A DNA stretch of 32,602 nt from Chloroflexota bacterium (GTDB lineage Bacteria > Chloroflexota > UBA6077 > JACQUR01), in NCBI GenBank assembly GCA_016210245.1, contig JACQUR010000108.1:1-32602 (forward strand), given 5' to 3'. Of the stretch, positions 1 to 31,271 are shown piece after piece. Under the pieces are notes generated by a model. It had not been told where the DNA came from, did no database searches, and was given only the letters and a program-made list of their open reading frames with translations. Numbering within the stretch: the stretch's first letter is position 1; each line of letters begins with the position of its first letter. The position numbers were made by a program, and so were the translations under genes.

Positions 1-105
1 CCGGTGCCCACCCGCGTGCCGCCCGAGATCAAGGCGCGCATGGACCCGGGTGACTACGTCCGCCCGCTGAGCGACGAGGACGCAGCGTTCTTGCGAGGGG
101 AGTGA
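1..105 (+). CDS. UbiD-family decarboxylase, C-terminal end only (5' truncated by window)
   Basis: Frame 1 reads PVPTRVPPEIKARMDPGDYVRPLSDEDAAFLRGE*, close to the C-terminus of the complete UbiD at 8071-9582 (PAPTRVPPEVSARMDPGEYVGPLNDRVLRYVRGE*); the same GTGA overlap with the next gene is present. Confidence 0.85.
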   Translation, partial: PVPTRVPPEIKARMDPGDYVRPLSDEDAAFLRGE

Positions 106-107
106 CC

Positions 108-1586
108 ATGGCCGTCCAAGCCACGGCTGAGCTAGCCAGAGCGACGAAACCTCAGTGGCGCGACCTGCGCGAGTGGCTGCAGTTGGTCGAGGCCATCGGC
201 GAGCTGAAGACGGTGCGCGGGGCCACCTCGGAGGCGGACATCGGCGCGATCACCGAGATGTGCGAGCACGCCGACCAGAGCCCGTGCCTGCTGTTCGACG
301 ACATCCCGGGCTTTCAGCGCGGCTTCCGGGTGATGTCGAACGGCATGGGCACCCGCCGCCGCCAGGCGATCACCCTCGGCCTCGACCCCGCGGAGGCCTC
401 CCACGAGCGGCTGCTTGAGTTCTGGCGCGGGCTGCTGCGCGGCTTCACGCCCATTCCCGCGGTCACCGTTGGGCAGGGGCCGATCCAGGAGAACATCCTG
501 CGGGGCGAGGACGTGGACTTGGGCCGCCTCCCAGCCCCGATCTGGCACCCGCTCGACGGCGGGCGCTTCATCGGCACCGCCAGCGTGAACATCGTGCGCG
601 ACCCGGATACCGGGGTAGTCAACGCCGGCACCTACCGCAACCAGATCTTCGACCGCAACAGCGTCGGCATCCGGGTGGCCCCGCCGCACCACGGCGGGAT
701 CATCAAGGAGAAGTACCTGAAGCGCGGCGAGCCCTGCCCCGTGGTGGTGGTGGTGGGCTGCGACCCGCTGCTGTTCATGGCCTCGTGCGTGGAAGGCATT
801 CCCTTTGGCCTGAGCGAGTTCGACTGGGCCGGGGGGGTGCGCGGCCGGCCGATCGAGATGATCCAGGGCGAGGTGACCGGGCTGCCCATCCCGGCCTATG
901 CCGAGATCGCGCTGGAGGGCTTCGTCGTCCCGGACGAGTTCCACAAGGAAGGGCCGTACGGCGAGTGGATGGGCTACTACCAGGACGGGTACCAGCGCGA
1001 CCAGGTGGTGCGGGTCCACCGCATCTACCACCGCGACAACCCGGTCATCCTGGGCTGTCCCCAGGGCAAGCCGCCCCACGAGGACAACCGCTTCCTGGCC
1101 TACCTGCGCTCCGGCATGATCTGGGACCAACTGGAGAAGGCCGGCGTGCCAGGGGTGGTGGGGGTCTGGTCCCCGCCGGAGGGTGGCAACCGGCTGATGA
1201 CCGTGGTGGCGATCAAGCAGCAGTACCCCGGCCACGCCAAGCAGGCGGCGCTCATCGCCTCCCAATGCGCGGGCTCAGTGGAGATGTGCCGTCTGGTGGT
1301 CGTGGTCGACGACTACGTGGACGTGACCAACCTGCAGGACGTGATGTGGGCGATCCTGGCCCGCTCCGACCCGGCCCGCGACGTGGAGATCATCACCCGC
1401 ACCAAGGGCAGCCGGATCGATATCGGCATGGGCCCCGATGAGCGCGAGCTGAAGATGATGTCGCGCATGATCATCGATGCTACCACGCCCTACGAGTGGC
1501 TGAACCACCCGCTGGCGGGCGAGCCGATCTGCACGCCGGAGCGCACCCGGGCCACGCTGGAGAAGTGGGGCTGGATCCTGAGTTGA
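108..1586 (+). CDS. UbiD-family (prFMN-dependent) decarboxylase, type B
   Basis: ORF 102-1586; NAGTYRNQIFDRNSVGIR and KEGPYGEWMGYYQDGY match UbiD prFMN/active-site regions. ATG at 108 (or GTG at 102). Confidence 0.9.
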   Translation: MAVQATAELARATKPQWRDLREWLQLVEAIGELKTVRGATSEADIGAITEMCEHADQSPCLLFDDIPGFQRGFRVMSNGMGTRRRQAITLGLDPAEASHERLLEFWRGLLRGFTPIPAVTVGQGPIQENILRGEDVDLGRLPAPIWHPLDGGRFIGTASVNIVRDPDTGVVNAGTYRNQIFDRNSVGIRVAPPHHGGIIKEKYLKRGEPCPVVVVVGCDPLLFMASCVEGIPFGLSEFDWAGGVRGRPIEMIQGEVTGLPIPAYAEIALEGFVVPDEFHKEGPYGEWMGYYQDGYQRDQVVRVHRIYHRDNPVILGCPQGKPPHEDNRFLAYLRSGMIWDQLEKAGVPGVVGVWSPPEGGNRLMTVVAIKQQYPGHAKQAALIASQCAGSVEMCRLVVVVDDYVDVTNLQDVMWAILARSDPARDVEIITRTKGSRIDIGMGPDERELKMMSRMIIDATTPYEWLNHPLAGEPICTPERTRATLEKWGWILS

Positions 1587-1674
1587 GATTTCGGATTTCG
1601 GATTTCGGATTTCGGATTGAGGAGGCGTGAGGCCCGGTCCCCAATCCGAAATCCGAAATCCGAAATCCGAAATC
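1587..1674. repeat. Inverted repeat with heptamer arms (ATTTCGG)n
   Basis: Left arm 1587-1618 gatttcggatttcggatttcggatttcggatt; right arm 1643-1674 is its exact reverse complement (32 nt). Confidence 0.95.
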
Positions 1675-1686
1675 CAAGGAGTGGAC

Positions 1687-3969
1687 ATGGCGATAGGACA
1701 GGCGGTCCCGATGGTGGACTGGTGGTCGCGCGTGACCGGAGAGGTGGCCTACGCCCTCAACCTGAAGCTGCCGGGCATGCTGCACGCGCGCGTCTTGCAC
1801 AGCCCGCACGCTCACGCGCGGCTGGTGCGGGTGGACACCTCGAGGGCCGAGCGGCTGCCGGGGGTCGCGGCGGCCATCAGCCGCAACGACCTGCTCGGGC
1901 AGGACCAGTTCTCCCCGTACTACGGCCCGGTCATCCGCGACCAGACGCCGCTGGCGCTGGACCGGGTGCGCTACGTGGGCGAGCCGGTGGCGGCGGTCGC
2001 CGCGGTCGACGAGGACACCGCGGCCGAGGCGCTGGACCTGATCGAGGTGGAGTACGAGGAACTGCCGGCTGTCTTCGATCCGGAGGCCGCGCTGGCGCCC
2101 GGGGCGCCGCTGCTGCACGAGGGGCCGCGGCGGGTCATTCCCGCCCGACTCGAGGTGCGGGCGCGGTCGAAGGAAGGGACGAACATCATCCACCTGTTCA
2201 CCCAGCGCAAGGGCGACGTGGAGCAGGGGTTCCGCGAGGCGGACCTCATCATCGAAAACGTGTACACCAGCCCGCCGGTGGCGCACGTGCCGATGGAGCC
2301 CCACAACGCCATCGCCCAGGTGCGGGACGGCCGGATCACCATCTGGACATCGAACCAGAGCCCGCACCTGGTCCAGATGCAGATCGCGGACATCTTCCGC
2401 TTGCCGACGGCCGACGTGCGGGTGATCGTCTCCACCCTCGGTGGCGGCTATGGCGGCAAGATCAACGCCAGGATCGAGCCCATGGCCGCGCTGCTGGCCT
2501 GGAAGGCGCGGCGGCCGGTGCGGCTGGCGCTGCGGCGCAACGAGGAGTTCCTGGTCTACACCCAGCACGCCGTGAAGGTCCGGCTCAAGACGGGGGTGAA
2601 GCGCGATGGGACGCTGGTGGCCCACGAGGCTACCTGCTACTACAACGGCGGCCCCTTCGCCGACAGCTCGCCCAACCTGATCCAGCGAGCCTACGCGTCC
2701 ACCGGACCGTACCGGGTACCCAACCTCAAGACGGACTCCTACGGCGTCTACACTAACGCCCTGCCGGCAGGAGCCTTCCGCGGCTACGGGATCACCCAGG
2801 TCGCCTGGGCGCACGAGCTCCAGATGGACCTCATTGCCGACCAGCTCGGGATCGACCCGCTCGAGCTGCGGCGCAAGAACGTGCTGCACGAAGGTGAGCC
2901 CTTCACCACGGGCGAGCCGTTCCCCGAGTGCCACTACCCCGAACTACTGGAGGAAGCGGCTCGACGGATCGGCTGGGGCGAGGGGCCGCTGGTGGTGCGC
3001 GAGGGCACCAGGATCCGCGCCAAGGGCCTGAGCTGCATCGTCAAGGGCGCCGCGACCGTGCCGTCCTCGGCGATCGTCAAGCTGAACGGCGACGGCAGCC
3101 TGAACGTGCTGGTCAGCAGCGTGGAGATGGGCCAGGGGGCGCAGACGGTGCTGGGCCAGATCGCGGCCGACGAAGCCGGGCTGCCGTTCGAGCGAGTCCG
3201 GGTGTCCGAGCCCGACACGGCCGTCACCCCCTTCGACCACATGACCGCCGCGAGCCGCACGACCTTCACCATGGGCACGGCCGTGCGCTACGCCGTCCAG
3301 GATGTGAAGCGGCAACTGCTGGAGCTCGGGGCCGACCTGCTGGAGGTGTCCAGAGACGACGTGGTGCTGGAGGATGGGCGGGTGAAAGTGCGCGGCGCGC
3401 CCGATCGCTCGCTCGGCTACGGCGACGTGGTCCGCCGGGCGCTGCGCGGCAACCTGCTGGGCCACGGCTACTTCGGGCCGACGACGCACCTGGACCTGGA
3501 GACCGGCCAGGGAAAGGGATCGGCGCAGTGGCACCCGGCGGTGGTGACGTGCGAGGTGGAGGTCGACACGGAAACGGGCAAGGTGGAGGTGACGCGCCTG
3601 CACGCCTGCCTGTACGTCGGGCGGGCCATCAACCCGCGCTTCTGCGAGCTGCAGGTCGAGGGCAGCGCCCTGTTCGGACTGGGCCAGGCGCTGTTCGAGG
3701 AAGTGGTCCTGGACACCGACGGTCGCATCGCCAATCCCAACCTGAGCGACTACATGATCCCGTCGTTCGAAGACGTGCCCCACGAGTTGACGACGTACGT
3801 CCTCGAGTCGGCACATACCAAGGAGGTCCACGGGATCGGCGAGACCGCGGTCCCACCGATTCGGCCGGCCATCGGCAACGCGGTCAACCGAGCGCTGGGC
3901 ACGCGCATCTTCGATCTGCCGCTTACCCCGGAGAGGGTGCTGCGGGCGCTGCAGGAGCAGCGTGGCTAG
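1687..3969 (+). CDS. Xanthine dehydrogenase family protein, molybdopterin-binding (large) subunit
   Basis: LGGGYGGK, AGAFRGYG, SSVEMGQG and HGIGETAVPP motifs; ATG at 1687 preceded by AAGGAG. Confidence 0.92.
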   Translation: MAIGQAVPMVDWWSRVTGEVAYALNLKLPGMLHARVLHSPHAHARLVRVDTSRAERLPGVAAAISRNDLLGQDQFSPYYGPVIRDQTPLALDRVRYVGEPVAAVAAVDEDTAAEALDLIEVEYEELPAVFDPEAALAPGAPLLHEGPRRVIPARLEVRARSKEGTNIIHLFTQRKGDVEQGFREADLIIENVYTSPPVAHVPMEPHNAIAQVRDGRITIWTSNQSPHLVQMQIADIFRLPTADVRVIVSTLGGGYGGKINARIEPMAALLAWKARRPVRLALRRNEEFLVYTQHAVKVRLKTGVKRDGTLVAHEATCYYNGGPFADSSPNLIQRAYASTGPYRVPNLKTDSYGVYTNALPAGAFRGYGITQVAWAHELQMDLIADQLGIDPLELRRKNVLHEGEPFTTGEPFPECHYPELLEEAARRIGWGEGPLVVREGTRIRAKGLSCIVKGAATVPSSAIVKLNGDGSLNVLVSSVEMGQGAQTVLGQIAADEAGLPFERVRVSEPDTAVTPFDHMTAASRTTFTMGTAVRYAVQDVKRQLLELGADLLEVSRDDVVLEDGRVKVRGAPDRSLGYGDVVRRALRGNLLGHGYFGPTTHLDLETGQGKGSAQWHPAVVTCEVEVDTETGKVEVTRLHACLYVGRAINPRFCELQVEGSALFGLGQALFEEVVLDTDGRIANPNLSDYMIPSFEDVPHELTTYVLESAHTKEVHGIGETAVPPIRPAIGNAVNRALGTRIFDLPLTPERVLRALQEQRG

Positions 3970-5342: not shown

Positions 5343-5417
5343 GATGCTCGAACGGTGGGCTTTCTGGCGATGCCGGCAGATATCAAGTCCAGGCTGCAGC
5401 GGGTGATGCGCCCGTGA
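5343..5417 (+). pseudogene. C-terminal remnant of a second TctC/Bug-type binding protein
   Basis: Reads ...TVGFLAMPADIKSRLQRVMRP*, matching the C-terminus of 4127-5335 (LEFLDMPADLKTKLKNAMRPS*); no intact upstream body. Confidence 0.75.
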
Positions 5418-7897
5418 AGCAGGCGCTGGCCAATCGGGATGGGGGAAGGGCGTCCTTCGACAGGCTCAGGACGAGCGTGGGGCCGGTCGGGCAGAGCGTG
5501 CCGGTGGTCGACGCCTACGAGCGCGTCACGGGGCAGGTGGGCTATGTGCTCAACGTCGAGCTGCCCGGCATGCTGGCCGGGCGGATCCTGCGCAGCCCGC
5601 ACCCCCACGCCCGAGTGCTCCGCGTCGACGCCTCGCGCGCCGAGCGCCTGCCGGGCGTCGTGGCTGTCCTGACCCGGGCGGACCTGGAGCACCCGGAGGC
5701 CCTCACTCCCCGCTACGGGCGGATGCTCTGCGACCAGACCATCGTGGCGGTAGACCGGGTGCGCTTCGTCGGCGACCCGGTGGCGGCGGTAGCGGCCGTG
5801 GACGAGGAGGTGGCCGACGAAGCGCTCGACCTGATCGAGGTCGACTACGAGCCGCTGCCAGCCGTGTTCGAGGTGGACGAGGCGCTGCGGCCGGACGCGC
5901 CGCTGCTCCACGAGCCCCGGCCGGAGGTGCAACCCGGGCTCGGGCACCTGGCCGGGGCCGTCGCCGGAGCGAACAACCTGTGCGGCCACTTCAAACTGCG
6001 CCGAGGCGATGTGGAGCAGGGCTTCGCCCAGGCGGACTTCGTCTTCGAGGACACCTTTCGCTCCCCCGCCGTGCAGCACGTGTCGCTCGAGCCGCACGTC
6101 ACCGTTGCCCAGTACGAGGGCGGCCGGCTCACCCTCTGGTCCTCTACCCAGATGCCCCACGCGATCCGAGCCCAGATGGCGACGATGTTCCACCTGCCGC
6201 AGTCGAAGGTGCGGGTCATCGTCCACACCCTGGGCGGCGGGTATGGCGCCAAGGGCTCGCTCCGACTCGAGCCGATCGCCAGCCTGCTGGCCTGGAAGGC
6301 GCGGCGGCCGGTCAAGATCGTCCTGCGGCGTGCGGAGGAGTTCGTCACGGTCACCAAGCACGCCGCGACTGTCCACGTGAAGACCGGGGTGATGCGGGAT
6401 GGGACCCTCGTGGCGCGACAGATGGCTACCTACTTCAACACCGGCGCCTACGCCGACATCGGGCCGCTCGTCGCCCGCAACGGCGGCCTGGCCATGGTCG
6501 GCCCATACCGGGTCCCGCACGTGAAGATCGACTCGTACGCGGTCTGGACCAACCTCGTTCCAGCCGGGGCGTTTCGCGGCTTTGGCGTGCCGCAGGCGGC
6601 CTGGGCGTACGAGAGCCAGATGGACATGATCGCCGAGCGGTTGGGCATGGACCCGCTCGAGCTGCGGCGCCGGAACGTGGTCCACGACGGCGATCGCCAC
6701 CCGAGCGGCCAGGAGCTCGAGGACCTGCACTTCGACGAGCTGATCGAGGGTGCGGTGGCGTCCGTCGCCTGGCAGCCGGGCGACGCCTGGTGGCTGAGGC
6801 AGGCCGCGGCGGGTGGGCAGGATGAGAGCAGGTCTCGGCAGGCCCGCCCTTCAGGGCGGCAGCCCAGAGAGGCCGCCGCCCTGAAGGGCGGGCCTGGGAG
6901 CGCCGCGGAGCCGGGTGGGCAGGGCGGGCGAGAGACCAGCAAGCGCCGGGGGAAGGCCGTGACCGTCATCATGAAGTCCACGCTCACGCCGTCGACCTCC
7001 ACCGCCTCGGCCAAGCTGAATGAAGACGGCAGCCTGGACGTGGCCACCAGCAGCGTCGAGATGGGGCAGGGCGCCACGACGGCGCTGGCCCAGCTCGCCG
7101 CCGAGGCCGCGGAGCTGCCTTACCAGCGCGTGCGGGTGTCCGAGCCCGACACCGACGTGACCCCTTACGACCAGCAGACCAGTTCCAGTCGCACCACCTT
7201 CTCGATGGGCACGGCCGTAGCCCAGGCGGCCCGGGAGGTCAAGCGCCAGGTCCTGGAGCTGGCGGCGGGGCTGCTGGAGGTCGGGGTGGACGACCTGGTG
7301 GCGCGCAACGGCAGGGTGGAGGTCCGCGGGGCACCCGAGCGCGGACTCGACTACGGCGAGGTGGTGCGCAAGGGCCGGCGGGGCAACCTGCTCGGCCAGG
7401 GCGCCTGCGTCACGAAGGGCGGCCTGGACCCCGAGACAGGACAGGGCTTCGCCTCCGTCCACTGGCACCAGGCCACAGCCGCGTGCGAAGTCGAGGTCGA
7501 CACCGAGACCGGGAAGATCGAGGTGCTCAAGTTCGACTCCGGGGCGTTCGCGGGTAGGATGGTGAATCCCCGGCTGTGCGAGCTGCAGACCGAGGGGAAC
7601 ACCCTGTTTGGCCTGGGGCAGGCGCTCTTCGAGGAGATGCGGTACGAAGACGGCCAGGTGGTGAACCAGAACCTGGCCGACTACATGATCCCGTCCTTCA
7701 AGGACGTGCCTGGCGACCTGGTCAGCTCGATCCTGGAACGGGCGGAGAGGGGCGAGGTCCACGGCATCGGCGAAACCTCGCTCCCCCCAGTGATGGCGGC
7801 GATCGCGAACGCCGTCTACAACGCAGTAGGAGTGCGCATCACAGACCTGCCGCTCACGGCGGAGAAGGTGTTAGCAGTGCTGAGTGCTGAGTCCTGA
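5414..7897 (+). CDS. Xanthine dehydrogenase family protein, molybdopterin-binding subunit with repeat-derived insert
   Basis: LGGGYGAKG, AGAFRGFG, SSVEMGQG and HGIGETSLPP motifs; paralog of 1687-3969. GTG 5414 overlaps the stop of the remnant (GTGA). Confidence 0.9.
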   Translation: MKQALANRDGGRASFDRLRTSVGPVGQSVPVVDAYERVTGQVGYVLNVELPGMLAGRILRSPHPHARVLRVDASRAERLPGVVAVLTRADLEHPEALTPRYGRMLCDQTIVAVDRVRFVGDPVAAVAAVDEEVADEALDLIEVDYEPLPAVFEVDEALRPDAPLLHEPRPEVQPGLGHLAGAVAGANNLCGHFKLRRGDVEQGFAQADFVFEDTFRSPAVQHVSLEPHVTVAQYEGGRLTLWSSTQMPHAIRAQMATMFHLPQSKVRVIVHTLGGGYGAKGSLRLEPIASLLAWKARRPVKIVLRRAEEFVTVTKHAATVHVKTGVMRDGTLVARQMATYFNTGAYADIGPLVARNGGLAMVGPYRVPHVKIDSYAVWTNLVPAGAFRGFGVPQAAWAYESQMDMIAERLGMDPLELRRRNVVHDGDRHPSGQELEDLHFDELIEGAVASVAWQPGDAWWLRQAAAGGQDESRSRQARPSGRQPREAAALKGGPGSAAEPGGQGGRETSKRRGKAVTVIMKSTLTPSTSTASAKLNEDGSLDVATSSVEMGQGATTALAQLAAEAAELPYQRVRVSEPDTDVTPYDQQTSSSRTTFSMGTAVAQAAREVKRQVLELAAGLLEVGVDDLVARNGRVEVRGAPERGLDYGEVVRKGRRGNLLGQGACVTKGGLDPETGQGFASVHWHQATAACEVEVDTETGKIEVLKFDSGAFAGRMVNPRLCELQTEGNTLFGLGQALFEEMRYEDGQVVNQNLADYMIPSFKDVPGDLVSSILERAERGEVHGIGETSLPPVMAAIANAVYNAVGVRITDLPLTAEKVLAVLSAES
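5453..5476. repeat. Dispersed-repeat-like half site TCCTTCGACAGGCTCAGGACGAGC inside a CDS N-terminus
   Basis: Encodes SFDRLRTS in the 5414-7897 ORF; absent from the paralog N-terminus at 1687. Assignment to a repeat family is from memory. Confidence 0.5.
6840..6895. repeat. 21-bp perfect inverted repeat of the GCCCGCCCTTCAGGGCGGC family inside a CDS
   Basis: Arms 6840-6860 aggcccgcccttcagggcggc and 6875-6895 gccgccctgaagggcgggcct; related copies at 16906-16971 and 30366-30570. Confidence 0.95.
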
Positions 7898-8060
7898 GTC
7901 CTGAGTCAGGGACGAGCACTCAGCACTCAGCACTCAGCACTCAGCACTCAAGACTCAAGACTCAGCACTCAGGACTCAGGACTCAGCACTCAGGACTCAA
8001 GACTCAAGACTCAGCACTCAGGACTCAGCACTCAAGACTCAGGACTCAGGACTCAGCACT
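7883..8060. repeat. Heptamer tandem array (NNACTCA, NN = GC/GG/AG), about 20 units, with mirrored left arm
   Basis: 20 consecutive 7-bp units from 7916 to 8055 plus partial gcact 8056-8060; 7883-7907 is the exact reverse complement of 8036-8060 (25 nt). Confidence 0.95.
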
Positions 8061-8070
8061 GGAGGAGGCC

Positions 8071-9582
8071 GTGGCACAGCACGACACGCTGGCGCAGGTG
8101 GCGGACGCCGCAGAGGCGCGGGGCGAGGGGGCGAGCACGGGGGCGGAGGACCTGCGCACGTTCCTGAGGCGGCTGCTGGAGCATGACCCGGAGCAACTCA
8201 TGGTGGTGGACCGGGCGGTCGACCCGGTTTTCGAGGCCACGGCCATCGTGGACCGCATGCGCCTGGACCCGCGCTACCCGAAGTACCCGGCCGTGCTGTT
8301 CAAGAACGTCCGGGGCTCCCGCATGCCGCTGCTCATCAACCTGCACGGCACCTACGAGCGCCTGGCCCTGAGCATCGACTCGACCGTGCAGGGCATGGTG
8401 GAGGCGTTCCGTCGGCGCGAGAGCCAGCCGCTGCCGGTCAGGCGGGTCGAGCGGAGCGAGGCGCCGGTCAAGGAGGTGATCTGGACCGGGGAAGAGGCCG
8501 ACCTGAGCAGGCTCCCACTCCTCCAGCACCAGGAGCTGGACGCGGGCAAGTTCGTGACCTCGGACGTGGCGATCGTCCGCGACCCGAAGACCGGGGCGCT
8601 GAACGCCGGAACCTACCGCGCCCAGGTCCACGGCACCAAAGAGCTGGGGTTCATGGCTGGCAGCACGCAGAACGCGCGCTATGTCATGCTCCAGTACCGC
8701 GAGCGCGGGGAGTTGATGCCGATGGCGATGGCCATCGGACACCACCCGGCCCTGCTGCTGGCCGCCAGCACCAAGCCGCCGGGCGTCGGGGGCGAGCTGG
8801 AGGTGGCGGGCGGCCTGCTGCGGCAGCCGCTGGAGGTGGTGCGTGCGGAGACGGTCGACCTGGACGTGCCCGCCCGGGCCGAGATCGTGATCGAGGGCTT
8901 CGTGGACCCGAACCCCGAGTCCTTCCGCCAGGAGGGGCCGTTCGGCGAGTACCCGCGCTACTACACCGGCACGGGGCCGCAGCCGGTATTCGCCATCACG
9001 GCCATCACCACGCGCCGCAACCCGATCTACGTCGACGTGTTCAACGCCAGCCCCGAGCACCTGGCCGTCGGCGGCCTGGCGCGCGTGGGCTACCTGTCGA
9101 ACCGGGTGCGCGACGTCTGTCCCAACGTGACCAGCGTCCATCTGCCGCTCTCCGCCAGCGCCCGCCTGCACGCCTACATCTCGATGAAGAAGCACGCCGA
9201 TGGCGAGCCCCACCTGGCCGCCTTCGCGGCCTTCGCCTGCAACCCGACCCTCAAGCTGGTGGTTGTGGTGGACGACGACATCGACGTGACCAACGAGGCG
9301 GAGGTGCTCTGGGCGCTGTCCACCCGCTTCCAGGCGGACAAGGACATGACCCTCATCCCCAACTCGGTCGGTGGCTTCCTGAACCCGCCCACCTACGCCT
9401 ATCGTCGGGACCAGAAGGGCAGTATGGAAACCAAGCTGATCTTCGACTGCACCCGCCCGGCCCCGCCGGCCAGGTTCCCGGCCCCCACCCGCGTGCCGCC
9501 CGAAGTCAGCGCGCGCATGGACCCGGGTGAGTACGTGGGGCCACTGAACGATCGAGTGCTGCGGTACGTGCGAGGGGAGTGA
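8071..9582 (+). CDS. UbiD-family decarboxylase, type A
   Basis: NAGTYRAQVHGTKELGFM, RQEGPFGEYPRYYTG; GTG start after GGAGGAGG. Confidence 0.9.
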   Translation: MAQHDTLAQVADAAEARGEGASTGAEDLRTFLRRLLEHDPEQLMVVDRAVDPVFEATAIVDRMRLDPRYPKYPAVLFKNVRGSRMPLLINLHGTYERLALSIDSTVQGMVEAFRRRESQPLPVRRVERSEAPVKEVIWTGEEADLSRLPLLQHQELDAGKFVTSDVAIVRDPKTGALNAGTYRAQVHGTKELGFMAGSTQNARYVMLQYRERGELMPMAMAIGHHPALLLAASTKPPGVGGELEVAGGLLRQPLEVVRAETVDLDVPARAEIVIEGFVDPNPESFRQEGPFGEYPRYYTGTGPQPVFAITAITTRRNPIYVDVFNASPEHLAVGGLARVGYLSNRVRDVCPNVTSVHLPLSASARLHAYISMKKHADGEPHLAAFAAFACNPTLKLVVVVDDDIDVTNEAEVLWALSTRFQADKDMTLIPNSVGGFLNPPTYAYRRDQKGSMETKLIFDCTRPAPPARFPAPTRVPPEVSARMDPGEYVGPLNDRVLRYVRGE

Positions 9583-9584
9583 CG

Positions 9585-11096
9585 ATGGCCATCCAAGCCA
9601 GGCACGAGCTAGCGGGAGCCAGGAAACCCCTCTGGCGCGACTTGCGTGAGTGGCTCCTGTTGGTGGATGCCATCGGCGAGCTGAAAACGGTGCGTAGGGC
9701 CAGTTCCGAGGCGGACATCGGCGCTATCGCCGAGATGCTGGACCATGCCGAAGAGAGCCCGTGCGTCGTCTTCGACGACATCCCGGGCTTCGAGCCTGGC
9801 TACCGGGTGATGGTGAACGGTATGGGGACCCGGCGCCGCCAGGCGATCACCCTGGGCCTCGATCCCGAAGAGGCCACCCACGAGCGGCTGCTGGAGTTCT
9901 GGCGCGGGCTGCTGCGCGGCTTCACGCCCATCCCGCCGATCACGGTCGGGAAAGGGGCGATCCAGGAGAACGTGCTGCGGGGCGAGGAGGTGAACCTGGC
10001 GCGCTTCCCAGCCCCCATCTGGCACCCGCTCGATGGGGGCCGCTTCATCGGGACCGCGAGCATCAACATCATGCGCGATCCCGACAGCGGCGCAATCAAT
10101 GCCGGCACGTACCGCAACCAGGTCTTCGATCGAAACAGCATTGGCATTCGGGTCGTGCCCCCCCACCACGGCGGCATCATCAAAGCGAAGTACCTGCAGC
10201 GCGGGGAGCCCTGCCCGATCGTGACGGTGGTGGGGGCTGACCCACTGCTGTTCATGGCCTCGTGCGTGGAAGGGCCTGGCTTTGGGCAGAGCGAGCTGGA
10301 TTGGGCCGGGGGCGTGCGAGGCCAGCCGCTGGAGGTGATCGAAGGCGAGGTGACGGGGCTGCCGATCCCAGCCCACGCCGAGATCGCGCTCGAGGGCTTC
10401 GTCACGACCGACGAGTGGCACAAGGAAGGGCCGTACGGCGAGTGGACCGGCTACTACCAGGACGGGTACGCCCGCGACCAAGTGGTGCGGGTCCACCGGG
10501 TCTACCACAGAAACAACCCGGTCCTCCTGGGCTGCCCGCAGGGCAAGCCCCCCCACGAGGACAACCGCTTCCTGGCCTACCTGCGCGCGGGGATGATCTG
10601 GGACCAACTGGAGAAGGCCGGCGTGCCGGGCGTGCGCGGTGTCTGGAGCCCGCCCGAGGGCGCGAACCGGCTGATGACCGTGGTGGCGATCGAGCAACAG
10701 TACCCCGGGCACGCCAGGCAGGCAGCGCTCATCGCCTCTGAGTGTGCGGCTGCCGTCGACACCGGCCGCATGGTCGTGGTCGTCGACCACCACGTGGACG
10801 TCACTAACCTGCAGGATGTGGTGTGGGCGATCCTGACCCGCTGCGATCCAGCCCGTGACGTGGAGATCATCACTCGGACCCGGTCCGTTCGGACTGACAT
10901 GGCGATCGATCCCGACAAGCGGGAACTGAAGATGAACTCGCGCCTGATCGTCGATGCCACTACGCCGTTCGAGTGGAAGGACCACCCGTTGGCCGGGGAG
11001 ATCATCGCTACGCCTGAGCGAGCCCGGGCCACACGCGAGCGGTGGGGATGGATCCTGGGACAGGCACGCGGGTCGCGTGTCGCTGAATCAGACTGA
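9585..11096 (+). CDS. UbiD-family decarboxylase, type B
   Basis: Close paralog of 108-1586; ATG at 9585, or GTG at 9579 overlapping the preceding TGA. Confidence 0.9.
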   Translation: MAIQARHELAGARKPLWRDLREWLLLVDAIGELKTVRRASSEADIGAIAEMLDHAEESPCVVFDDIPGFEPGYRVMVNGMGTRRRQAITLGLDPEEATHERLLEFWRGLLRGFTPIPPITVGKGAIQENVLRGEEVNLARFPAPIWHPLDGGRFIGTASINIMRDPDSGAINAGTYRNQVFDRNSIGIRVVPPHHGGIIKAKYLQRGEPCPIVTVVGADPLLFMASCVEGPGFGQSELDWAGGVRGQPLEVIEGEVTGLPIPAHAEIALEGFVTTDEWHKEGPYGEWTGYYQDGYARDQVVRVHRVYHRNNPVLLGCPQGKPPHEDNRFLAYLRAGMIWDQLEKAGVPGVRGVWSPPEGANRLMTVVAIEQQYPGHARQAALIASECAAAVDTGRMVVVVDHHVDVTNLQDVVWAILTRCDPARDVEIITRTRSVRTDMAIDPDKRELKMNSRLIVDATTPFEWKDHPLAGEIIATPERARATRERWGWILGQARGSRVAESD

Positions 11097-16905: not shown

Positions 16906-16971
16906 GGGCTGCCGTCCTGAAGGGCGGACCTGGGGAGACCAGACAAGGTCCGCTCTTCAGGACGGCAGCCC
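16906..16971. repeat. 26-bp inverted repeat (GGGCTGCCGTCCTGAAGGGCGGACCT)
   Basis: Arms 16906-16931 and 16946-16971, one mismatch; same family as 6840-6895. Confidence 0.93.
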
Positions 16972-19154: not shown

Positions 19155-19312
19155 TCGGGTGGAACGGATTGCTGTCAACGGATTCGGGGAACGGATTGGA
19201 ACAGATTGGAATGGAATTAGAACGGAATTGGAACGGATTGAGCGCTCGGCTGTCCGTTCCAATCCGTTCAATCCGTTCCCCGAATCCGTTGACAGCAATC
19301 CGTTCCACCCGA
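19155..19312. repeat. 44-bp perfect inverted repeat rich in GGAACGGATTG units
   Basis: Arms 19155-19198 and 19269-19312 exact; loop contains further degenerate GGAACGGATT units. Confidence 0.93.
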
Positions 19313-20134: not shown

Positions 20135-20168
20135 GTGTGCCTCGCGAAACCGCCGAGACGCGGGGTCC

Positions 20169-20256
20169 GGGGACGCGGGGACGCGGGGACGCGGGGACGC
20201 GGGGACGCGGAGACGGACGGGTCGCTCTCTCCGTCCCCGCGTCCCCGCGTCCCCGC
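20169..20256. repeat. Octamer repeat (GGGGACGC)5 with mirrored (GTCCCCGC)3
   Basis: Five perfect copies 20169-20208; complementary copies 20233-20256. Confidence 0.92.
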
Positions 20257-20317
20257 GTCTGAGCACCCGGCGTCCCCGCGGTTGGACAAGGTGTGCTGAG
20301 CGAGGTGGAGGCGAGCG

Positions 20318-24654: not shown

Positions 24655-24749
24655 GAGAGACGGGATGCACCACGGAGACACGGAGACACGGAGTTTTCTT
24701 ATGAGAACATCTCCGTGTCTCCGTGTCTCCGTGGTGCATCCCGTCTCTC
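24655..24749. repeat. 39-bp perfect inverted repeat with (ACACGGAG)n arms
   Basis: Arms 24655-24693 and 24711-24749 exact; 17-nt AT-rich loop. Confidence 0.95.
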
Positions 24750-27580: not shown

Positions 27581-27615
27581 GACGTTGTGAGTGCCTGCTC
27601 GCGGAGAGGGACGTT

Positions 27616-27682
27616 CACCACGGAGCCACGGAGCCACGGAGCTTTTTCTCAGAAGACTCCGTGGCTCCGTGGCTCCGTGGTG
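27616..27682. repeat. 26-bp perfect inverted repeat with (CCACGGAG)n arms
   Basis: Arms 27616-27641 and 27657-27682 exact; related to 24655-24749. Confidence 0.95.
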
Positions 27683-27730
27683 CGCGTCTCCTCACGCGCG
27701 AAGCCATGAGGGTTTCACCCTGGCTTTAGT

Positions 27731-30271: not shown

Positions 30272-30365
30272 CGATGGCGGGATCCCGCGTAACCTCGCCG
30301 TGCCCGGGGAGCGGCGGCGGGCTGAGTATACCAGCCGCAGGTAGGCACGGCGACGGTTGGCGGGT

Positions 30366-30570
30366 CCGGGGTCATCGTCCTGAAGGGGGAAGTTGCCGCC
30401 CTGAAGGGCGGACCTGGGCGTGAGGCCCGCCCTTCAGGGCGGCAGCCCCAGCCCCGGCGGACCTGGGCGTTGGGCCCGCCCTTCAGGGCGGCAGTCCCAG
30501 CCCCGGCGGACCTGGGCGTTAGGTCCGCCCTTCAGGGCGGCAACTTCCCCCTTCAGGACGATGACCCCGG
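30366..30570. repeat. 50-bp perfect inverted repeat enclosing a 49-bp-period tandem repeat
   Basis: Arms 30366-30415 and 30521-30570 exact; GGYCCGCC cores at 30424, 30473 and 30522. Confidence 0.95.
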
Positions 30571-30611
30571 GTCCGCCTCCGCGCCTGCCTGCGCTCTACG
30601 GCGAGGATGCC

Positions 30612-30857: not shown

Positions 30858-30976
30858 GATCCACTGCTCCAATCCGATGTCTGGCACTCCTGCTTGCCAG
30901 GCCTGCAAAGGGTATGCCGAGGTGATCGAGCCGGGCGACCAGGCAGGTGGTCGTGTCTTGCTGACCTTCGAGTCGC

Positions 30977-31043
30977 AGGGGGCGACGGCCCTGTCGCCCC
31001 GCCGGCCCCGTTCCGTAGGGGGCGACGGCCCTGTCGCCCCGCC
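30977..31043. repeat. Tandem duplicated hairpin AGGGGGCGACGGCCCTGTCGCCCCGCC
   Basis: Identical 27-nt copies at 30977-31003 and 31017-31043 (40-bp period). Confidence 0.9.
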
Positions 31044-31271
31044 GCGCAGAGCGCGGCAAAGGCCCCGGGGGTCGGAGGCCACAGAAGGTGGCCCCGGCTC
31101 GTGGGACCATTGCCGCCCTTCGGGCGGCGGGCAGACAGGGCCGTCTGCCCCTACGGCTACGGCAGGGCGGCGGGCAGAAAGCGTCGTCCGTCCCGACGAT
31201 GGGTGACCTGCCGGCAGGTGGCGCAGGCCGCTGGCCTGCGCAGATCGCACGGCCCCGGCGAGAAGCCCGGG

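Follow-up and report, generated by a model that had tools for sequence, protein, structure and literature searches.

A dispersed hairpin repeat carried in frame by a molybdenum hydroxylase gene of Chloroflexota

How does an enzyme gene come to carry a large DNA palindrome in the middle of its reading frame? This question is raised by the gene at positions 5414-7897 (plus strand) of a 32,602-nucleotide contig (C10), hereafter called the window, which belongs to a Chloroflexota MAG of 4.41 Mb that comprises 547 contigs and is 74.6% complete. The 827-amino-acid product is a Mo-hydroxylase large subunit of the xanthine dehydrogenase/4-hydroxybenzoyl-CoA reductase alpha family, and the actual start of its open reading frame may lie downstream of position 5414. 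The protein includes the Pfam domains Ald_Xan_dh_C (residues 39-149), MoCoBD_1 (188-422) and MoCoBD_2 (508-766). TIGR03194 is its best match, yet below cut-off, and the nearest orthologs share 62-64% protein identity. Two Mo-hydroxylase large subunits, several ABC transporter genes and three UbiD-family decarboxylases (window 102-1586, 8071-9582 and 9579-11096) are neighbors here, an arrangement that suggests an aromatic-compound degradation cluster.

The insert and its place in the enzyme

A preliminary description of the window, made from the sequence alone, reported a perfect 21-bp inverted repeat inside this gene. The two arms (6840-6860, AGGCCCGCCCTTCAGGGCGGC; 6875-6895, GCCGCCCTGAAGGGCGGGCCT) are indeed exact complements, and the additional pair C6839/G6896 extends the match to 22 bp. 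The left arm (6839-6860) is a hairpin unit in the minus orientation (CCGCCC-TTCA-GGGCGG) translated as ARPSGR, and it is separated by a 14-bp spacer (6861-6874) from a right arm (6875-6896) carrying the same unit in the plus orientation (CCGCCC-TGAA-GGGCGG), translated as AALKGGP. Both lie within a 90-bp segment (6822-6911) whose peptide includes DESRSRQARPSGRQPREAAALKGGPGSAAEPGGQ, and which is bracketed by two exact copies of the 12-bp direct repeat CGGGTGGGCAGG (6810-6821 and 6912-6923), a candidate target duplication. These copies are 102 bp apart and in identical codon phase, such that the insert plus one repeat copy amounts to 34 codons, or approximately residues 470-503. The presence of an in-frame palindrome in this gene is thereby confirmed: the frame is uninterrupted across it, and the VEMGQG and GIGE motifs are found downstream, as had been claimed.

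The inserted segment differs from its surroundings in coding character, with a codon-usage score per codon near zero versus +0.34 and +0.38 for the flanking gene. Its predicted fold is also exceptionally stable, at -70.7 kcal/mol for the 90 nucleotides compared to -44.7 +/- 3.5 kcal/mol for shuffled versions (z = -7.4; 0 of 200 shuffles match this value).

Relative to its paralog, the protein was originally described as having an extra stretch at 6795-6960. This extra stretch is real, both against the paralog (1627-3969) and in an alignment of approximately 65 homologs, but the better bounds are probably 6822-6911 plus the 12-bp repeat, for a net gain of 34 amino acids. Between W453 and R512 the linker measures 58 amino acids here, 21-28 in the five nearest orthologs, 13 in the paralog and 7-17 in most other homologs, with some Frankia homologs reaching 28-46. 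We prefer the narrower bounds because the linkers of the nearest orthologs are longer than that of the paralog, and subtraction of 34 amino acids leaves a linker of 24, which falls within the range of those orthologs. An insert of approximately 45 amino acids, as judged from the paralog alone, was dropped after the closer orthologs were aligned. None of the homologs in the alignment retains the insert, and the five nearest orthologs thus support the existence of an insert-free ancestor.

The insert is located between MoCoBD_1 and MoCoBD_2. An AlphaFold2 model built from a 22-sequence alignment (mean pLDDT 84, pTM 0.84) falls below a pLDDT of 50 in only three stretches, namely residues 1-23, 274-278 and 469-506, the last of which is the insert, predicted as a disordered loop between two well-modeled domains. 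Whether the insert forms a surface loop had been raised as a point to model in the preliminary description. Furthermore, chain A of nicotinate dehydrogenase (3hrd) matches residues 26-437 and chain B matches residues 510-826, which places a natural chain break at the insert site. Given this chain break and the low pLDDT values, the linker is likely to be an exposed site that tolerates extra length. The enzyme probably still works.

Other repeats also touch this gene. A TTCGACAGGCTCAGGACGA repeat at window 5454-5476, near the annotated N-terminus, is translated as FDRLRTS, and CTCAGSA-type heptamers at 7875-8061 provide the final codons and the stop. Consequently, the N-terminus, the middle and the C-terminus of the gene each carry a different repeat.

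A dispersed hairpin family and its signs of mobility

The hairpin unit is not confined to this gene. CCGCCC-TGAA-GGGCGG occurs as 135 exact copies in the 4.41-Mb genome and as 171 copies when one mismatch is allowed, compared to 0 and 3 for the reversed control sequence, and GCCGCCCTGAAGGGCGG is present in 128 exact copies. Within approximately 0.3 Mb of loci from this genome, 118 hairpins with the CCGCCC/GGGCGG stem have a TGAA/TTCA loop and few have another. In a survey that covered 28 further genomes of the class, a 17-mer of the hairpin exceeded two copies only in G009 (19 exact copies) and G014 (7 exact copies), and every site examined in these two relatives is intergenic.

Sixty-four repeat clusters were examined, the majority of which consist of two units in inverted (+,-) orientation around a short loop, although some form arrays. 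The window was previously thought to hold two further members of the same family, and this proved correct for the hairpin unit, which recurs in a diverged intergenic (+,-) member at 16906-16971 and in an intergenic composite at 30359-30577 (first placed at 30366-30570). The latter has four units (+,-,-,-) within a 57-bp inverted repeat with outer arms of the C type. The gene copy, however, is not the same composite element, since its two hairpins run in the reverse order of most intergenic copies.

Several recurrent types of outer arms surround the hairpins, and types A, B, C and D differ in their ends. Subfamily A elements are approximately 124 bp long, lack an open reading frame, and carry 19-20-bp terminal inverted repeats whose ends are AGGGCTATTCAGTTGTCCG in inverted orientation. 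Copies of this subfamily are 92-99% identical, have unrelated outer flanks and, in some cases, are bordered by 8-9-bp duplications. The characteristics used to define MITEs (terminal inverted repeats, a target duplication and no transposase gene) are all found in subfamily A and partly in B and C. Three elements (L086, L113 and L123) join an arm of one type to an arm of another, and these hybrids arose either by recombination at hairpins or through assembly error.

Short direct repeats flank the elements more often than they flank control positions. Of 55 elements, 7 have flanking repeats of at least 12 bp and 15 have flanking repeats of at least 9 bp; the corresponding shares among 2,660 control positions are 0.3% and 6.5%. 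The 24-27-bp flanking repeats of L086, L093 and L131 are doubtful target duplications; that of L086 is situated in simple-repeat DNA, and that of L093 resembles a longer diverged gene-junction duplication. Without these three, repeats of at least 12 bp still flank 4 of the 55 elements. At L093 (1545-1645), an overlapping stop/start gene junction occurs as two diverged copies (24 bp exact) with the hairpin between them, and because this junction is duplicated around the hairpin both adjacent genes appear to retain intact ends. The flanking duplications range from 8 to 27 bp, a spread unlike that left by a single transposase, and thus duplication by template switching is possible. The earlier proposal that the palindrome is mobile gains support from the dispersed near-identical copies, their sharp ends and these flanking duplications.

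The gene copy fits this family imperfectly. Its hairpins are in (-,+) order, whereas most intergenic copies are (+,-), and the other (-,+) case is one junction in the L080 array. It has a 12-bp flanking duplication without terminal inverted repeats, it has only the hairpins in common with other elements, and its ends match none of them. Given the unmatched ends and the hairpin order, it does not reproduce an intergenic element exactly.

Other repeats are also present in the window. A GTAG repeat related to REP sequences considered below lies at 30971-31158, and simple heptamer-like repeats (TTTCGGA, AACGGATT, GACGCGG and CACGGAG) form inverted arrays between genes at 1587-1674, 19155-19312, 20148-20283, 24655-24749 and 27592-27706. 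These arrays are perhaps terminators or mobile repeats. No match to the window was obtained with Rfam covariance models at gathering thresholds.

Recurrence in other genes

The palindrome family strongly avoids genes overall, and most copies are intergenic. Six of the 64 clusters are genic, though the loci are 81% coding according to a gene finder that had learned the codon usage of the window, and all six lie in open frames. The search for further in-frame copies, as had been recommended at the outset, uncovered among these clusters five other genes besides that for the Mo-hydroxylase. A clean comparison is offered by glycerate kinase (L112), which has an extra 33 amino acids between its DUF4147 and MOFRL domains that are absent from 11 of the 11 orthologs aligned. 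In a TorD-molybdopterin oxidoreductase fusion (L087), the linker is approximately 17 amino acids longer than that of its paralog C223, which itself has another repeat there. In-frame palindromes are also found in a ResB-like protein (L085), a Wzy_C-like protein (L080) and the C-terminal tail of an EAL protein (L106). Insert-free orthologs were compared for the window enzyme and L112, and a paralog for L087, while L085, L080 and L106 are assigned by their open frames; no close ResB orthologs of L085 were found among 25 relatives.

Across these genes the hairpin unit is translated in different frames, yielding AALKGGP, ARPSGR, GPPFRA or RPALQGG. The use of several frames is as expected for non-coding DNA that has turned coding. 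Since several cases can be set against insert-free orthologs or in-genome paralogs, the question of whether these insertions alter the enzymes or are simply tolerated becomes testable.

A fragment 89% identical to glycerate kinase residues 43-95 is located approximately 1.2 kb upstream of that gene (G000:C26:4548-4706), and represents either a partial duplication or an assembly artefact.

Three paralogous TorD-molybdopterin fusions of this genome present a further arrangement, in which the same linker is occupied by a different repeat family in each: the palindrome (C194; L087 2560-2760), a TCGACAGGCTCAGGA-type repeat (C216; L171 3040-3290) and CTCCGCGT heptamers (C223; L175 895-1010). The C223 fusion also has an in-frame TAA within its TorD part. 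The occurrence of different repeat families in the same paralog linker is a more unusual lead than the palindrome insertion itself. We offer as a tentative generalization, somewhat short of an even chance, that several unrelated short-repeat families repeatedly colonize inter-domain enzyme linkers in frame in this lineage; both these paralogs and the three different repeats of the window gene point that way. If true, repeat invasion would routinely supply new linker sequence.

Origin of the insert and relation to known palindromic repeats

Taken together, these observations make it very probable that the palindrome is a copy of a mobile REP/MITE-like repeat that inserted into the linker with a 12-bp duplication and survived by virtue of its frame and a tolerant site. 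A genome-wide mobile repeat built on CCGCCC-TGAA-GGGCGG would have entered the inter-domain linker of the Mo-hydroxylase gene, presumably by transposition, and left the flanking duplication. Frame and site would then have decided its survival, which we attribute to a net length of 102 bp that is a multiple of three, to a unit that is open in five of six frames, and to a linker that tolerates length. In the predicted product, a disordered loop of 34 residues connects the two Mo-cofactor domains of the enzyme.

The same insert might instead have a local origin, in which a long and fast-evolving linker became palindromic through duplication, slippage or recombination without any mobile element. 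The variable length of the linker, 21-28 amino acids in the nearest orthologs and up to 46 in some Frankia homologs, is consistent with such a history, as is the failure of the ends of the gene copy to match any other element. However, the hairpin is identical, TGAA loop included, to well over 100 other copies in unrelated contexts, and the glycerate kinase insertion is clean, with 33 amino acids versus none in 11 orthologs, and thus we regard a purely local origin as highly improbable. Least probable of all is a misjoin at a repeated hairpin during assembly. The fragmented and incomplete state of the MAG, the contigs that often terminate in palindromic repeats, and the elements that look like hybrids of two families would all invite such an error, but the stretches before and after the insert encode parts of a single protein, share their best orthologs and keep an intact frame, and the same pattern recurs in several other genes. 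A role in the mRNA, either as a ribosome pause at the domain boundary or as an expression brake, would account for a very stable predicted hairpin situated exactly between two domains. This proposal seems very unlikely, as other genic copies reside in unrelated proteins, in one case at the C-terminus, while no ortholog keeps the insert and linkers simply tolerate insertions.

The proposal of a specific mover for the family deserves more weight, although it too is rather unlikely: the repeats might be REPs or REPINs moved by a RAYT of this genome, with the gene copy as an intragenic REPIN. The pairing of 16-bp hairpin units in inverted orientation is REPIN-like (PMC3116915), and a search with PF01797 revealed a single Y1 gene in the 75%-complete genome, which is a RAYT (L119:2051-2617; NF047646 above cut-off). 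The sequences on both sides of this RAYT (L119 1660-2958) carry a GTAG-tagged REP, GTAGGGGC[AG]GACGG, together with CCGCCC-TCG-GGGCGG hairpins that have the stem of the TGAA unit and a different loop. This shared stem is suggestive, but it does not establish that the RAYT moves the TGAA unit. The repeats beside the RAYT are these others and not the TGAA unit, and linkage of the family to the RAYT was rejected for this reason. Just 4 of 131 TGAA units have GTAG or CTAC at a distance of 12 bp or less, and CGTC is absent from the unit. The (-,+) order and the flanking duplications are likewise atypical of REPINs.

MITEs are generally moved by a DDE transposase supplied in trans. The ends and duplications of subfamily A would fit such an enzyme, and none was found in the genome. 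Indeed, no transposase linked to the TGAA hairpin family was found in the 75%-complete genome, and a search for an autonomous partner located the subfamily A terminal repeat elsewhere only at MITE spacing (approximately 100 bp) or at contig ends.

Palindromic DNA within reading frames has precedents, including Rickettsia palindromic elements (RPEs), QMITEs and intragenic REPs, and it is the present family and its host that are new; no description of the family in Chloroflexota was found in the open-access literature. RPEs (Ogata et al., 2000, 2002) are short dispersed palindromes, intergenic or in frame in unrelated protein genes, that add tens of fold-compatible residues (as cited in PMC10969869 and PMC3733652). 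They are approximately 150 bp long, and nearly half of the first-described ones are genic according to PMC10969869. The analogy to RPEs drawn in the preliminary description is right as a statement about behavior, in that a palindrome family is dispersed between and within genes and has an in-frame insertion absent from orthologs. The phylum and base composition are different, and the genic share is 6 of 64 clusters here versus nearly half in that account.

In-gene copies of REP sequences are known in several species (PMC3733652). The TGAA family resembles REPs and REPINs in having short hairpin units, often as inverted pairs, which is the main form among the 64 clusters, and in being mostly extragenic and sometimes genic (PMC3733652; PMC3116915). 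Judged by its sequence, it is not a GTAG/CGTC REP: there is no such tag at the foot of the hairpin and no linked RAYT, and many copies are bounded by terminal inverted repeats and flanked by duplications. Coxiella QMITE1 and QMITE2, for which in-frame insertions or fusions are described (PMC5896051), are matched by subfamily A in its 19-20-bp terminal inverted repeats, length of approximately 124 bp, lack of an open reading frame and 8-9-bp duplications. Unlike MITEs, the gene copy has no terminal inverted repeats, and the same hairpin resides within several MITE types of differing ends. In-frame palindromic mobile DNA, best known from the obligate intracellular Rickettsia, is thus extended to a high-GC, larger-genome member of the Chloroflexota that carries different repeats.
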